From positions 1 through 35,374 of IMG/VR virus record IMGVR_UViG_3300021197_000949: DNA of 35,374 bases; one strand, given 5' to 3'. The notes under the pieces were generated by a model, which did not search any database, was not told where the DNA came from, and was given only the letters and a program-made list of their open reading frames with translations. Every line of letters begins with the position of its first letter. The stretch's first letter is position 1. This document shows positions 28,735-35,374 of the stretch, in pieces. This stretch comes from a virus. The position numbers and the translations under genes were made by a program.

Positions 28735-28757
28735 TAAAAGCTCCAAGCTCCAGTCTG

Positions 28758-28785
28758 CCCCCACCCCTAAAAAGGTGGGGGTTTT
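28758..28785 (+). terminator. Intrinsic terminator after the gp32-like gene
   Basis: CCCCCACC (28758-28765) pairs with GGTGGGGG (28774-28781) around CCTAAAAA, followed by TTTT. Confidence 0.88.
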
Positions 28786-28788
28786 CTG

Positions 28789-28817
28789 TTGCGCCTTTGA
28801 CGCTTCTGTGTTATAAT
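28789..28817 (+). promoter_or_regulatory. Sigma70-type promoter for uvsX
   Basis: TTGCGC (28789-28794), 17 bases, TATAAT (28812-28817) with extended TGT. The better-looking TTGACG at 28797 is only 9 bases from the -10. Overlaps the T-run side of the preceding terminator. The leader is A-rich (about 60 bases) and ends in AAGGAG. Confidence 0.65.
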
Positions 28818-28886: not shown

Positions 28887-30017
28887 ATGGCTAAAGCAAA
28901 AGCTAAGGCTGGACGTGTATCTATGTCCGATCTTAGAGCGATGATAAATAAAAAGGCAGGTCGCAATGTCGCTCACGACCTCCGAGAAGATAATCCCACA
29001 GAAGTAAAGCAGTGGATCCCAACAGGATCCCGATGGCTTGATTCTATCGTTTGTAAGGGAAAATACGCTGGCATTCCTGTCGGCAAGGTAACAGAGTTGG
29101 CTGGCTTAGAAGCGACAGGCAAGTCGTTCTTGGCAGCCCAGTGCGCAGCAAACGCACAGAAGATGGGGATTGGAGTAATCTACTTTGATTCCGAGTCCGC
29201 GATTGATCCAACCTTCTTGGAGAAGGCTGGGTGTGATATTGGGGCTATGATGTATGTTCAGGCTCAATCAGTAGAGTTTGTGCTTGAGACCATAGAAGAG
29301 CTATTGGGAGCAGCCGACGAGCAACTGCTATTTATTTGGGACTCTCTGGCATTCACCCCGTCAGTTTCAGATGTAGCAGGCGACTTCAACCCTCAATCAT
29401 CAGTAGCAACCAAGGCTCGCATTCTTGCGAAGGCGATGTCAAAGTTGGTTATTCCACTCGCAGACAAGAAGGCTACGTTCCTTGTTCTCAATCAGTTGAA
29501 GACTAACATCCCACATGGACCCATGGCACGCCAGATTGCGATGACCACGCCTTACATCACCCCAGGCGGAAAGGCTATGCACTATGCTTACTCTCTCCGC
29601 ATCTGGCTTACAGGTCGTAAGAGCAAGGCAGCCTATGTGCTTGATGATAATGGTTTCCGAATTGGTTCAGAAGTCAAGGTCAAGCTTGAAAAGTCTCGTT
29701 TCGGAACACAGGGTAGAACTTGCACATTCCGAATCTTATGGGGAACAGAATCAATTGGTGTGCAGGACGAAGAGTCGTGGTTTGAGGCTCTGAAGGGCTT
29801 TATGACTGTTGCAGGCTCTTGGTATACCTTGACACGCGGAGAGTACTCTAAAAAGTTCCAGCCCAGCAAATGGGTTGAGATCCTACAGAATGATCCAGAG
29901 TTTAAGCAGCACGTTATGGATTTTATGGACGAAGTAGTAGTCCAGAAGTTCGACAAGCGTGAAGGCGAAGCATCAGATTTCTATGAAGTAGATGCTGGGG
30001 TAGACAAAGCCTCTTGA
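28887..30017 (+). CDS. uvsX: RecA-like recombinase, T4 UvsX-like (376 aa)
   Basis: Strand-exchange ATPase for recombination-dependent replication and repair. Walker A GLEATGKS at 73-80 (K79), Walker B LLFIWDS with D152, a VLNQLKTNIPHGP loop 2-type region, then ITPGGKAMHYAYSLRIWL, the RecA-family core strand. The N-terminus is basic (MAKAKAKAGR). Length is near T4 UvsX (391 aa). It has its own promoter. The stop codon overlaps the -35 element of the next promoter (TTGACA at 30014). Works with the gp32-like protein next to it. Confidence 0.93.
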   Translation: MAKAKAKAGRVSMSDLRAMINKKAGRNVAHDLREDNPTEVKQWIPTGSRWLDSIVCKGKYAGIPVGKVTELAGLEATGKSFLAAQCAANAQKMGIGVIYFDSESAIDPTFLEKAGCDIGAMMYVQAQSVEFVLETIEELLGAADEQLLFIWDSLAFTPSVSDVAGDFNPQSSVATKARILAKAMSKLVIPLADKKATFLVLNQLKTNIPHGPMARQIAMTTPYITPGGKAMHYAYSLRIWLTGRKSKAAYVLDDNGFRIGSEVKVKLEKSRFGTQGRTCTFRILWGTESIGVQDEESWFEALKGFMTVAGSWYTLTRGEYSKKFQPSKWVEILQNDPEFKQHVMDFMDEVVVQKFDKREGEASDFYEVDAGVDKAS

Positions 30018-30042
30018 CAGACAGCCTCCAGCCCGTTATATT
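30014..30042 (+). promoter_or_regulatory. Near-consensus sigma70 promoter for the FEN gene
   Basis: TTGACA (30014-30019), 17 bases, TATATT (30037-30042): the best promoter in the window. The -35 includes the uvsX stop; the -10 lies in the loop of the inverted repeat at 30025-30054, so the expected start (about 30049) falls in its 3' arm. Confidence 0.85.
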
Positions 30043-30054
30043 ATGGGCTGGAGG
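30025..30054 (+). promoter_or_regulatory. Inverted repeat enclosing promoter -10 and ribosome site
   Basis: CCTCCAGCCC (30025-30034) and GGGCTGGAGG (30045-30054) pair perfectly over a 10-base loop. The 3' arm contains the FEN ribosome site GGAGG (30050-30054), six bases from ATG. In a transcript read through from uvsX the site would be paired; in one begun at the embedded promoter the 5' arm is absent. No T run follows, so it is not a terminator. Confidence 0.7.
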
Positions 30055-30060
30055 TAATCT

Positions 30061-31026
30061 ATGAAGCGTGTACTCGTAATCGACGCCCTCAATATGTTTT
30101 TGAGGGCGTTTATTGTTGATCCCAGTCTATCTAACCACGGACAGCCAATTGGCGGGATCAAGGGATCTATCAAGATCCTACAGAAACTGGTTAGAATGAC
30201 AAATCCAAATGAGATTGTGATTTGTTGGGACGGACCAAACGGATCTCAAAAGCGCAAGGCTATGAATTCGTCTTATAAGGAGGGTCGGAAGCCCCTACGC
30301 CTGAATCGTTCTGTTCACAATCTAACAGAGAACGAAGAGATACAAAATAAAGTCTGGCAGCAAATGCAGATTATCGAGTATCTAAACCAGATGCCCATCA
30401 TCCAGCTTATTCTTGACAGAGTTGAGGCTGATGACATCATCTCTTATGTCTGCAATTCATCGCACTACAAGGGTTGGCAGAAAGTGATTGTCTCAAATGA
30501 TAAAGACTTTTTACAGCTTTGTGACGAAGAGACTGTAGTTTATCGCCCGACCACAGATAAGATCGAAACCAAGAAGACTGTGATTGAGTCTATGGGAGTC
30601 CATCCCACCAACATGGCGCTCGCACGCGCTATGGATGGAGACGCCAGCGACAATCTTCCTGGCGTCAATCGTGTTGGGATGAAGACGATCGCCACCAAGT
30701 TGCCGTTTATGAAAGACGAGCGAACCATCACGATCGATGAGCTACTTGATTACTGCGAGAGCATTGATTCAAAGCTGAAAGTCTACAAGAACATTTCAGA
30801 GTCAAAAGAACTAATTGAACATAACTACCAGATGATGCAGTTGTATTCTCCCCTCATCTCTGTCCAGGGCAAGCAAACCATTGACTATGCCCTTGAGAAC
30901 TTTGAGTGCGAGTTCAACAAAACCGAACTGCTAAGGCTTATGATGAACGATGGGTTCGGAGAACTCAACTGGGAAGAACTAAAGGGATTCCTTAATAGAA
31001 TTTCTAGGGAATGTAAAGAGAAATAA
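30061..31026 (+). CDS. Flap endonuclease / 5'-3' exonuclease, T4 RNase H-like (321 aa)
   Basis: Removes RNA primers and 5' flaps. Metal-binding acidic residues are in place: D8 (VLVIDALNM), D57 (VICWDGP), E122/D124/D125 (VEADDII), D147/D149 (SNDKDF), D194/D197 (GDASDNLPGVNRVG), and the last begins the helix-hairpin-helix that grips duplex DNA. SQKRKAMNSSYKEGRKP fits the helical arch region. Length is close to T4 RNase H (305 aa). It supplies the exonuclease that the minimal PolA lacks on the 5' side. Expressed from a strong early-type promoter in a hairpin; the late motif for the next gene follows directly after its stop. Confidence 0.9.
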   Translation: MKRVLVIDALNMFLRAFIVDPSLSNHGQPIGGIKGSIKILQKLVRMTNPNEIVICWDGPNGSQKRKAMNSSYKEGRKPLRLNRSVHNLTENEEIQNKVWQQMQIIEYLNQMPIIQLILDRVEADDIISYVCNSSHYKGWQKVIVSNDKDFLQLCDEETVVYRPTTDKIETKKTVIESMGVHPTNMALARAMDGDASDNLPGVNRVGMKTIATKLPFMKDERTITIDELLDYCESIDSKLKVYKNISESKELIEHNYQMMQLYSPLISVQGKQTIDYALENFECEFNKTELLRLMMNDGFGELNWEELKGFLNRISRECKEK

Positions 31027-31027
31027 C

Positions 31028-31037
31028 ACTATTTACT
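31028..31037 (+). promoter_or_regulatory. Putative late promoter motif ACTATTTACT inside the replication region
   Basis: Part of CACTATTTACTAC, identical over 13 bases to the motif ahead of the neck operon. It is the only late-type motif downstream of 15846 and sits 2 bases after the FEN stop, ahead of the two basic Cys-rich proteins. It implies that these are made late with virion genes. Confidence 0.6.
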
Positions 31038-31053
31038 ACCGAGGTGTAGTAAA
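31032..31053 (+). promoter_or_regulatory. Inverted repeat over the late motif, ribosome site and start
   Basis: TTTACTAC (31032-31039) and GTAGTAAA (31046-31053) are a perfect 8-bp pair with loop CGAGGT, which carries the ribosome site; the last A is the first base of ATG 31053. The 5' arm overlaps the late motif, so late-initiated RNA would lack it, whereas RNA read through from FEN would fold. Confidence 0.6.
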
Positions 31054-31805
31054 TGGAAAATCAATTCTCAAAGTTTGTAGATAAGAAAGACTTCTTCTTT
31101 CAGCTAGGTCAAAAAGATGCCCAGGACGGAAAACATAGATCTCGTGAAGAGATTTCTATGCTTGCTGATGTCGGTCAGATCTCAGAAGATCATTACCAAG
31201 AGTATCTATCAGGTCGTCAGGCTGGAGAAGAAGATTCCCATTACTATGAAGACTTATACGAACTTGATGAAGAAAACCTTCTAAACTTTGTAAATGAAGA
31301 AGAGGTCGAGCTAGACGAAAAGAAGAAAAAGAAATCAAAAGGCAAGAAAGACGCTTGCTACCACAAGGTTCGCGGTCGTTATGATGTGTGGCCTTCTGCT
31401 TATGCAAGCGGGGCTCTCGTTAAGTGCCGCAAAGTCGGCGCTGCAAACTGGGGCAACAAGTCAAAGAAAAAAGAAGGCTTGGAGTTAGATGACAAGCTTC
31501 TTCAAATCATCAAAGAAGAGTATCAGACAGTTCTATCCGAAAAAAAAAAGCTAACGGCTAAACCTTCTTCCGAGAGTAGCCTTAAAGACTGGTTCGGTCG
31601 CAAAGGTGCTCCCGGTAAGAAGGGCGGCTGGGTTGATTGCAACACTTGCCGCAAGGATAAGAAGACAGGAAAGAAGAAATGCTCACCCTGCGGTCGTTCA
31701 GGTGACGAAAAGAGATCAAAATACCCTTCATGTAGACCCACCCCCGGCGCATGTGGCAAGAGAGGAAGTTGGGGCAAAAAGTCTAAGGGAGGCAAGAAGG
31801 GATGA
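31053..31805 (+). CDS. Lys/Cys-rich protein with DUF5872-like domains, candidate internal head protein (250 aa)
   Basis: Residues 1-89 are acidic and helical and end EVELDE; a basic module then starts KKKKKSKGKKDACYHKV and contains GRYDVWPSAYASGALVKCRK (about 108-127), a DUF5872-type marine phage sequence. A second acidic helix (LLQIIKEEYQTVLSE, ending at 163) is followed by KKK and a second basic module with GWVDCNTCR, KKKCSPCGR and KYPSCRPTPGAC. Both acid-to-base junctions (LDE-K at 89/90, LSE-K at 163/164) fit the (I/L)xE rule of the T4 prohead protease. The Cys pairs could bind zinc. Function unknown; packaging with DNA in the head is inferred, supported by the late-type motif. Overlaps the next gene by ATGA. 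Confidence 0.7.
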   Translation: MENQFSKFVDKKDFFFQLGQKDAQDGKHRSREEISMLADVGQISEDHYQEYLSGRQAGEEDSHYYEDLYELDEENLLNFVNEEEVELDEKKKKKSKGKKDACYHKVRGRYDVWPSAYASGALVKCRKVGAANWGNKSKKKEGLELDDKLLQIIKEEYQTVLSEKKKLTAKPSSESSLKDWFGRKGAPGKKGGWVDCNTCRKDKKTGKKKCSPCGRSGDEKRSKYPSCRPTPGACGKRGSWGKKSKGGKKG

Positions 31806-33604: not shown

Positions 33605-35374
33605 AAACACACATTCGTAGATTTAAGTTATCAGACACATTTATTGAGCAATACCGAGAGCGACAAGTTCCCTGGGGACCTCTCGGCTATGTTACATTCA
33701 AGCGCACCTATGCACGCCGCTTGAGTGAGTTTGACGAGGAGGCAACCGGAACAGAAGAGTGGTTCCAGACCTGCCGCCGCGTTATTGAGGGAATGTTTGA
33801 GATGCAGAAGCAGCACGTTTACAAGCTAGGTCTTGAATGGAACGATGCTAAATCACAAGCGACAGCGAAGGATGCCTATGAGCGTCTATTCACCCTCAAA
33901 TGGACACCCCCCGGTCGTGGCTTGTGGATGATGGGCACCAAGTTCGTAAATGATCGCACCGCTGCTGGTCTATTCAACTGCGCCTTCCGTTCAACCCGAG
34001 AACTAAACACCAAGGGTGGCTACTTGTTCTCTTGGATGATGGACGCCCTTATGTTGGGCATCGGCGTTGGATTTGACACCCTCGGTGCTGGAACACTCAC
34101 AGTCCAGAGACCAGAGTTTACAAATGAAACTTTTGTGATTCCTGACTCTCGCGAGGGCTGGGTAGATTCAGTCAAGATCCTCCTAAATGGTTTCTTCTAT
34201 GGCGCCAAAGTTCCTACTTTTGACTACTCTGCGATTCGCCCCTATGGGGCACCTATCCACGGCTTCGGCGGAACATCAAGCGGCTCTGGACCTCTTGAAG
34301 AGCTACACGCAAGCCTAGCTGAACTCTACACAGCGCGTTTTGGAAACCCAATCACATCCGTAGACATCGTAGACACCGAGAACCTGATCGGTCGCTGCGT
34401 TGTCGCAGGAAATGTTCGTCGTTCTGCCGCTCTTGCGCTTGGAAACCACGAAGATCTTGATTACCTACAGATGAAGAACGATCCAGAAAAGCTTGCTCAC
34501 CATCGCTGGGGTTCAAACAACTCTTTCCACGCTATCGTTGGTCAGGACTACACTTGGCACGCCGAGCAGTCACAGAAGAACGGAGAGCCCGGCTACATTT
34601 GGCTAGACAACGCTCGCACCCGTGGTCGCTTTGCTGATCCTCCGAGAGATGATGATAAAAACGTTATGGGTTTCAACCCGTGCGTTGAGCAGCAACTAGA
34701 AGATGCCGAGCTTTGCTGCCTTGTTGAGACTTTCCCGGCTAAGCACGAGACTTACGAGGATTACCTCGCAACTCTCAAGATTGCCTACCTTTACGGAAAG
34801 ACAGTTACGCTCGCCAACACACATTGGGCTGAGACTAACGCAAAGATGTTAAAGAACCGCCGCATCGGACTTTCCCAGTCTGGTGTCGTTCAAGCATTCA
34901 ACAAGTTTGGTCGCCGTAAGCTAATGGAATGGTGTGATAGTGCTTATGAGCACGTAAAAGGACTTGACGCAAAGTATTCTGATTGGCTTTGTATTCCAAA
35001 GTCTGTCCGAATGACGAGCATCAAGCCTTCCGGCACAGTCTCTCTCCTAAATGGTTCAACTCCAGGCATTCATTATCCCGAAGATGAGTTCTACATCCGT
35101 CGCATTCGCTTTGCGGCTGATAGCGACATGCTGCCTGCTCTTGAAGAAGCTGGCTACAAGATTGAGCCAGACCATTACTCACCAAACACTATGTGTGTTG
35201 AGTTCCCGGTCCACGAAGAGCATTTCGTCAAGGGCAAGAGAGAGATTACGATGTGGGAGCAGCTTGAAATTGCCGCACAATACCAGCACTACTGGGCTGA
35301 TAACTCTGTGTCTATCACGGTTACTTTCAAGCCAGAAGAAGCAGAGCACCTCAAAACTGCTCTTGAAATGTATG
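33601..35374 (+). CDS. nrdJ: Class II (adenosylcobalamin-dependent) ribonucleoside triphosphate reductase, partial
   Basis: Makes deoxynucleotides from ribonucleotides, using cobalamin rather than an iron centre or glycyl radical. 591 codons are present and the frame runs off the right edge; about 150 residues are probably missing. Seen: a WTPPGRGLWMMGT block at 101-113 typical of monomeric RTPRs, redox Cys C127 (LFNCAF), the NPCVEQ box with the thiyl-radical Cys C361, partner Cys at 372/373 (ELCCLVET), and the KPSGTVSLL loop at 475. No allosteric ATP cone is visible at the N-terminus. The gene overlaps the helicase stop (ATGA). A B12-producing or B12-importing host is implied. Confidence 0.93.
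   Translation, partial: MKTHIRRFKLSDTFIEQYRERQVPWGPLGYVTFKRTYARRLSEFDEEATGTEEWFQTCRRVIEGMFEMQKQHVYKLGLEWNDAKSQATAKDAYERLFTLKWTPPGRGLWMMGTKFVNDRTAAGLFNCAFRSTRELNTKGGYLFSWMMDALMLGIGVGFDTLGAGTLTVQRPEFTNETFVIPDSREGWVDSVKILLNGFFYGAKVPTFDYSAIRPYGAPIHGFGGTSSGSGPLEELHASLAELYTARFGNPITSVDIVDTENLIGRCVVAGNVRRSAALALGNHEDLDYLQMKNDPEKLAHHRWGSNNSFHAIVGQDYTWHAEQSQKNGEPGYIWLDNARTRGRFADPPRDDDKNVMGFNPCVEQQLEDAELCCLVETFPAKHETYEDYLATLKIAYLYGKTVTLANTHWAETNAKMLKNRRIGLSQSGVVQAFNKFGRRKLMEWCDSAYEHVKGLDAKYSDWLCIPKSVRMTSIKPSGTVSLLNGSTPGIHYPEDEFYIRRIRFAADSDMLPALEEAGYKIEPDHYSPNTMCVEFPVHEEHFVKGKREITMWEQLEIAAQYQHYWADNSVSITVTFKPEEAEHLKTALEMY

Follow-up and report, generated by a model that had tools for sequence, protein, structure and literature searches.

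An insulator hairpin, with the promoter of the FEN gene nested in its loop, probably occupies the junction between uvsX and FEN in an uncultured virus with a T4-like contractile-tail phage gene set. The DNA analysed here, hereafter the window, is a 35-kb fragment (35,374 nucleotides) that encodes a major head protein, tail sheath, gp32-like protein, uvsX/RecA, FEN and DnaB-like helicase. In the window, we read the insulator, on the basis of folding models, as acting mainly on translation. For the clade as a whole, we give roughly even chances to a more general design, a nested promoter insulator kept at one fixed boundary, after uvsX. Its spacer would be selected for complementarity to the promoter's own leader; any stem could be replaced provided that the logic is kept (RNA from upstream ends or cannot be translated, the promoter's own RNA is free), and the terminator and ribosome-site modes would switch.

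A promoter nested in a hairpin between uvsX and FEN

The uvsX gene (RecA-like recombinase, 28887..30017, + strand; Pfam RecA, 2e-31) is followed on the same strand by the gene for a DNA-repair nuclease, the FEN or 5'-3' exonuclease gene (30061..31026; Pfam 5_3_exonuc_N, 7e-29), whose ATG lies at 30061. All elements between them are on the + strand. The -35 hexamer TTGACA (30014-30019) overlaps the uvsX stop TGA (30015-30017) and is separated by a 17-nt spacer, GACAGCCTCCAGCCCGT, from the -10 hexamer TATATT (30037-30042), which we assign from sequence and its pattern of conservation. Within the spacer lies the 5' arm of the hairpin, CCTCCAGCCC (30025-30034), an anti-Shine-Dalgarno (anti-SD) sequence supported by covariation. 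The 10-nt loop GTTATATTAT (30035-30044) encloses the entire -10, and the 3' arm GGGCTGGAGG (30045-30054), supported by covariation and the folding model, carries the FEN ribosome site: its outer half is the SD sequence GGAGG (30050-30054). The arms form a perfect 10-bp inverted repeat. An earlier note on this DNA had described a TTGACA-17-TATATT promoter with its -10 in the loop of such a repeat, which is correct to the base, and had put a GGAGG ribosome site within the 3' arm, where we also find it.

TTGACA-17-TATATT ties for the top promoter match between 20 and 35 kb of the window (11/12). With sigma-70, transcription begins 6-8 nt past the -10. Applied to the window, this rule predicts that the local RNA starts at 30048-30050, so that its 5' end would fall almost exactly at the SD. 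RNA from 30005-30090 has a folding energy of -33.7 kcal/mol, compared to -18.8 ± 3.0 for shuffles (z -4.95). The window has seven perfect stems that are 10 bp or longer and have loop sizes of 3-15; shuffled versions have 0-2. Taken alone, the inverted repeat is only moderately rare and is not decisive. What places the element beyond chance is its position around a near-consensus promoter and a ribosome site, together with its conservation. An Rfam covariance-model search of the window at gathering score gave no family match.

Gene neighbourhood and promoter class

TTGCGC-17-TATAAT (28789..28817, + strand), in which TGT precedes the -10, is the likely promoter of uvsX and would be the source of read-through RNA; our scan found a terminator-like hairpin just upstream of it (28757-28782). 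The same scan called no terminator-like site on this strand from the uvsX promoter to FEN, from which read-through into FEN would be expected. A separate terminator-like hairpin lies inside FEN, in codons 8-17 (30082-30110, GACGCCCTCAA..TTGAGGGCGTT followed by a T-rich tail); it is retained in many, not all, relatives, and might form when FEN is untranslated, adding polarity.

A DNA search for a cultured close relative of the window virus found none, and the FEN protein shares at most about 36% identity over most of its length with those of cultured or assembled phages. The nested promoter was absent in all three cultured or assembled phages with a related FEN in which we looked for it. A 191-kb relative has, on its + strand, 34 TTGAC promoters that are each accompanied by a ribosome site and a start; 33/34 lie outside 60-175 kb, and 12/17 of the CTATTTA late-motif sites lie inside that interval. 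Judged from this distribution of TTGAC sites, the FEN promoter is a member of a real promoter class.

Predicted effects on FEN translation

We propose that RNA from the uvsX promoter, running through the junction, would carry both arms, and that the 10-bp stem would then pair CCUCC with the FEN GGAGG and shut off FEN translation. The nested sigma-70-type promoter would start RNA about 7 nt past the -10, inside the 3' arm; such RNA would lack the 5' arm, leaving the ribosome site free. FEN output would thus be set by its own promoter, independently of the uvsX unit. A likely purpose would be to separate a nuclease needed in small amounts from a recombinase probably required in large amounts. 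From sequence comparison we have the promoter, the pairing, its conservation and the position of the arms relative to the -10 and SD; we infer the start site, the read-through, the translation block and the purpose.

Energy models, which are set at 37°C and ignore co-transcriptional folding, put the energy needed to open the window's SD at 16.9 kcal/mol for read-through RNA versus 1.6 for RNA started at 30049. In the modelled read-through RNA of the window, the probability that the SD is unpaired is about 0, and the modelled read-through opening cost is 11-18 kcal/mol in most lineages.

Two features of the layout count against a switch of this kind. The predicted local leader is just 11-12 nt long, with the SD at its extreme 5' end. 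Moreover, the uvsX stop lies 8 nt upstream of the 5' arm, and a ribosome terminating on uvsX could open the stem base, permitting some translation of read-through RNA. The same proximity, with the stop overlapping the -35, would suit translational coupling, in which ribosomes finishing uvsX open the stem and translation of FEN on read-through RNA scales with that of uvsX. We regard coupling as highly improbable: a ribosome should cover no more than roughly half of the 5' arm, the nested promoter would be superfluous, and the hairpins of other lineages are found hundreds of bases past uvsX or in front of unrelated inserted genes.

Conservation among close relatives

From FEN relatives and a pattern scan we assembled a close group of 25 distinct hairpin sequences. 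TTGACA is unchanged in 23/23 gap-free haplotypes, and the five bases that follow are free to vary. In L047 and L052, uvsX ends upstream of the -35 and TTGACA is nonetheless intact; it is therefore not kept merely as coding sequence. In the -10, the first T, the A and the last T are invariant while the three middle positions vary (TAnnnT), which we read as a sigma-70 -10 signature.

The arms vary together. Three pairs have changed on both sides (A-U/U-A, C-G/G-C and C-G/U-A), and the pair at the loop end varies between U-G, U-A and C-G. Among 22 haplotypes, 97.3% of cells are paired versus 93.0 in shuffles, the covariation score is 0.155 versus 0.074 shuffled (0/500 shuffles reach it), and slid-partner controls pair at just 50-61%. 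The check that the earlier note had proposed, conservation of pairing, has therefore held, through these compensatory changes and through repeated replacement of the whole stem, as described below.

Symmetric changes in the arms would suit a palindromic DNA site equally well, and the dyad spans the -35/-10 spacer through the start region, where a repressor, perhaps phage-encoded, could bind the palindrome and cover the promoter. The earlier note had held such an operator to be equally possible. We now disfavour it and think it very unlikely, since internal loops and a G-T pair break DNA symmetry in the majority of haplotypes (14/22), so that G-U pairs and internal loops are evidently tolerated, and since arm sequences are unrelated between lineages. 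An operator has a conserved half-site, usually at several sites; here the arms turn over, the full dyad occurs once per genome examined, and half-sites are at about chance level.

Conservation beyond recognisable sequence

Evidence for the insulator hairpin extends to more distant loci, in which we located the uvsX stop, took the promoters between it and FEN, and grouped their spacers into 16 clusters at <65% likeness. The spacer pairs with bases 3' of the -10 better than shuffled spacers do (p<0.05) in 15/16 clusters, and 14/16 beat about 95% of other-gene spacers from the same phages; as these sequence clusters need not each be a separate lineage in the strict sense, the counts make the cases look somewhat more independent than they are. 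At the first promoter after uvsX the 5' arm again sits in the -35/-10 spacer, with stem sequences that are unrelated between lineages: GCCCTCCT/AGGAGGGC in locus L057, AACCCCCTGATCG/CGATCAGGGGGTT in L246, ACCCCCTCAA/TTGAGGGGGT in L264, GCCCCTT../..AGGAGGGGC in L080 and CCTTTGA/TCAAAGG in L052. Three loci (L048, L387 and L397) are weak or negative for a nested hairpin at the uvsX junction.

Many of these hairpins resemble terminators. A T-rich tail (at least 5 T in 8 nt) is present in 13/18 representatives examined, most strongly in L060, L246 and L264, as would be expected if the hairpin mainly terminates uvsX RNA, with the promoter nested in a terminator and the SD inside it through lack of space. 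In L069 the SD falls outside the hairpin, and in a cultured phage of Microcystis, Mel-JY01, recA/uvsX and FEN are separated by an ordinary hairpin of terminator-like form; both fit termination. However, the tail in the window and close group is TAATCTAT or similar, without a U-tract, and the terminator scan omits the site. L052 and L057 likewise have no U-tract, and pairing is nevertheless kept. An intrinsic terminator is a GC-rich stem followed by a U-tract, a combination that we find in other lineages and not in the window. Termination as the main role seems unlikely to us.

T-rich tails in most other lineages do bear on the insulator itself, because they indicate that the common denominator is insulation and not translation control only. 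Translation control may be neither the ancestral nor the main role, which counts against the switch as first proposed. The idea that read-through RNA hides the SD and local RNA frees it has thus gained conserved pairing and a conserved promoter, but translation control is not the sole common role.

One further nested promoter was seen on the minus strand of G013 at 35116 (the same place in L069), after uvsX. Here TTGACA-18-TATAAT occupies the loop of a terminator-like hairpin rich in G, ACCCCCCCGACAC/GTGTTCGGGGGGGT, followed by TGCTTTT.

Specificity to the uvsX junction

We compared the junction with control promoters drawn from primase and UvsE relatives. Nested pairing is found in 17/20 clusters after uvsX versus 5/31 elsewhere (Fisher p 1.4e-6), where "elsewhere" comprises primase promoters and those UvsE promoters that are placed elsewhere. 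Within the UvsE set, two of the positives, L392 and L400, directly follow uvsX, as do two negatives, L387 and L397. Genome-wide, mean spacer pairing barely exceeds that of permuted spacers (p 0.002, outlier-driven), and the count of strong spacer duplexes does not differ significantly from that in permuted spacers. We rejected the notion that the whole genome uses anti-SD spacers, given the outlier-driven mean and the non-significant duplex counts. We also considered whether the promoters of the DnaB-like helicase, gp32 and UvsE have conserved hairpins, and rejected this, as conservation was lacking.

Inserted genes separate the hairpin-promoter from FEN in L012, L058, L057 and L066, and the hairpin-promoter stays put. 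The inserted gene is a GIY-YIG homing endonuclease in L012 and L058, and apparent remnants are found in L039 and L047, again downstream of the hairpin-promoter. After insertion, the FEN start either shares an ATGA with the stop codon of the inserted frame or closely follows it. L028 also has an endonuclease-like gene, on the side towards uvsX; its hairpin still adjoins FEN. The position of the hairpin despite inserted genes ties the element to the boundary between units that follows uvsX.

The inserted GIY-YIG gene has its own late motif and ribosome site (L058 about 2105-2200, L012 about 2073-2240), set within a CCCGACT..AGTCGGG repeat that is clear in L058. This insert resembles the control of T4 homing endonucleases.

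In L248, L252 and L256, where FEN lies 13 nt past the uvsX stop and the junction is promoter-less, we saw no promoter-hairpin over the ribosome site. Its absence there is unexplained if the hairpin instead protects or processes the 3' end of uvsX mRNA, as a barrier to exonucleases or a site for RNase III, and hardly affects FEN. A stable hairpin immediately 3' of uvsX in the window group would serve such a role. Protection also leaves unexplained why the loop contains the -10 and why the 3' arm nearly always contains the SD, and we give it hardly any weight.

Other hairpins and dyads

Ahead of the next gene in the window lies a late-motif hairpin, ACTATTTACTACCGAGGTGTAGTAAATG (31031-31054), which is kept in about 28 sequence variants, some with G-U changes. 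In the 191-kb relative, CTATTTA followed by a ribosome site is found mainly at 60-175 kb, a distribution to be expected of a T4-like late promoter. The earlier note had suggested a regulatory strategy shared between this hairpin and the one at FEN. The late-motif hairpin is real and conserved, but a shared strategy does not extend genome-wide, as most promoters of these phages have no such hairpin. It is a weaker device, of another kind and with a promoter of a different class.

Elsewhere, a GroES-like co-chaperonin promoter is nested in an 18-21 bp hairpin with the ribosome site outside (G002 143899-143985, in L157; G004 97502-97585, in L171). In G001, G007, G008 and G009, the promoter before a gene of roughly 140 aa (for example G001 19405, in L140) has a terminator-like hairpin, AACCATCTAGG..CCTAGGTGGTT plus a T-run, at the expected transcription start, and CTCC in its spacer is able to pair with the ribosome site; judged from its sequence, this hairpin looks like an attenuator. 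In G001 and G002, the -10 and the first part of the transcribed region are spanned at many TTGAC promoters by a small dyad (GTTAC-N9-GTAAC or GTTAT-N9-ATAAC), which could be the site of a phage regulator.

Discussion

External transcripts of the IS10/Tn10 and IS50/Tn5 transposase genes fold back, silencing read-through. The FEN element, as we read it, shares with them that RNA arriving from outside occludes the ribosome site by folding, and that RNA from its own promoter leaves the site free. It differs in that theirs is protection of a mobile element, and we know of no conserved nesting of a -10 in a loop in IS10 or IS50. With an intrinsic terminator overlapping the next promoter it has in common a GC-rich hairpin at an operon boundary, T-tailed in many lineages, although the U-tract is missing in the window group.

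There is a close likeness to phage T4 and to Aeh1 mobE: hairpins sequestering the ribosome binding sites of T4 e (lysozyme), soc, 49, I-TevI and segB, and of mobE, are relieved by an internal promoter (PMC3014915, PMC2988022). As in the gene e type, the SD is hidden in a longer RNA started upstream, here according to the folding model and covariation. A promoter in the region coding for the 5' strand likewise yields a translated RNA that lacks this strand; in the window the -10 lies in the loop between the arms, and the predicted start would leave the 5' arm out. In T4 the nested promoters are of the late type (TATAAATA) and serve late genes or genes of homing endonucleases. Here, by contrast, the promoter is bipartite and of the sigma-70 type, its 17-nt spacer contains the 5' arm, and it serves FEN, a DNA-metabolism gene. 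This nested promoter is also apparently of the same class as that of the upstream gene, and in relatives the hairpin is terminator-like too.

The hairpin and promoter trick itself is known from T4 late genes; what sets the present case apart is its use with an ordinary bacterial-type promoter and its retention, in a group of uncultured T4-like bacteriophages, through many complete changes of stem. The T4 late-gene trick is thereby extended to ordinary sigma-70-type promoters and a DNA-metabolism gene, and the deep comparison shows selection on pairing and not on sequence. In this compact design, a promoter spacer that doubles as the anti-SD arm would insulate a gene from upstream transcription, in a form that can be tested with reporters in E. 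coli.
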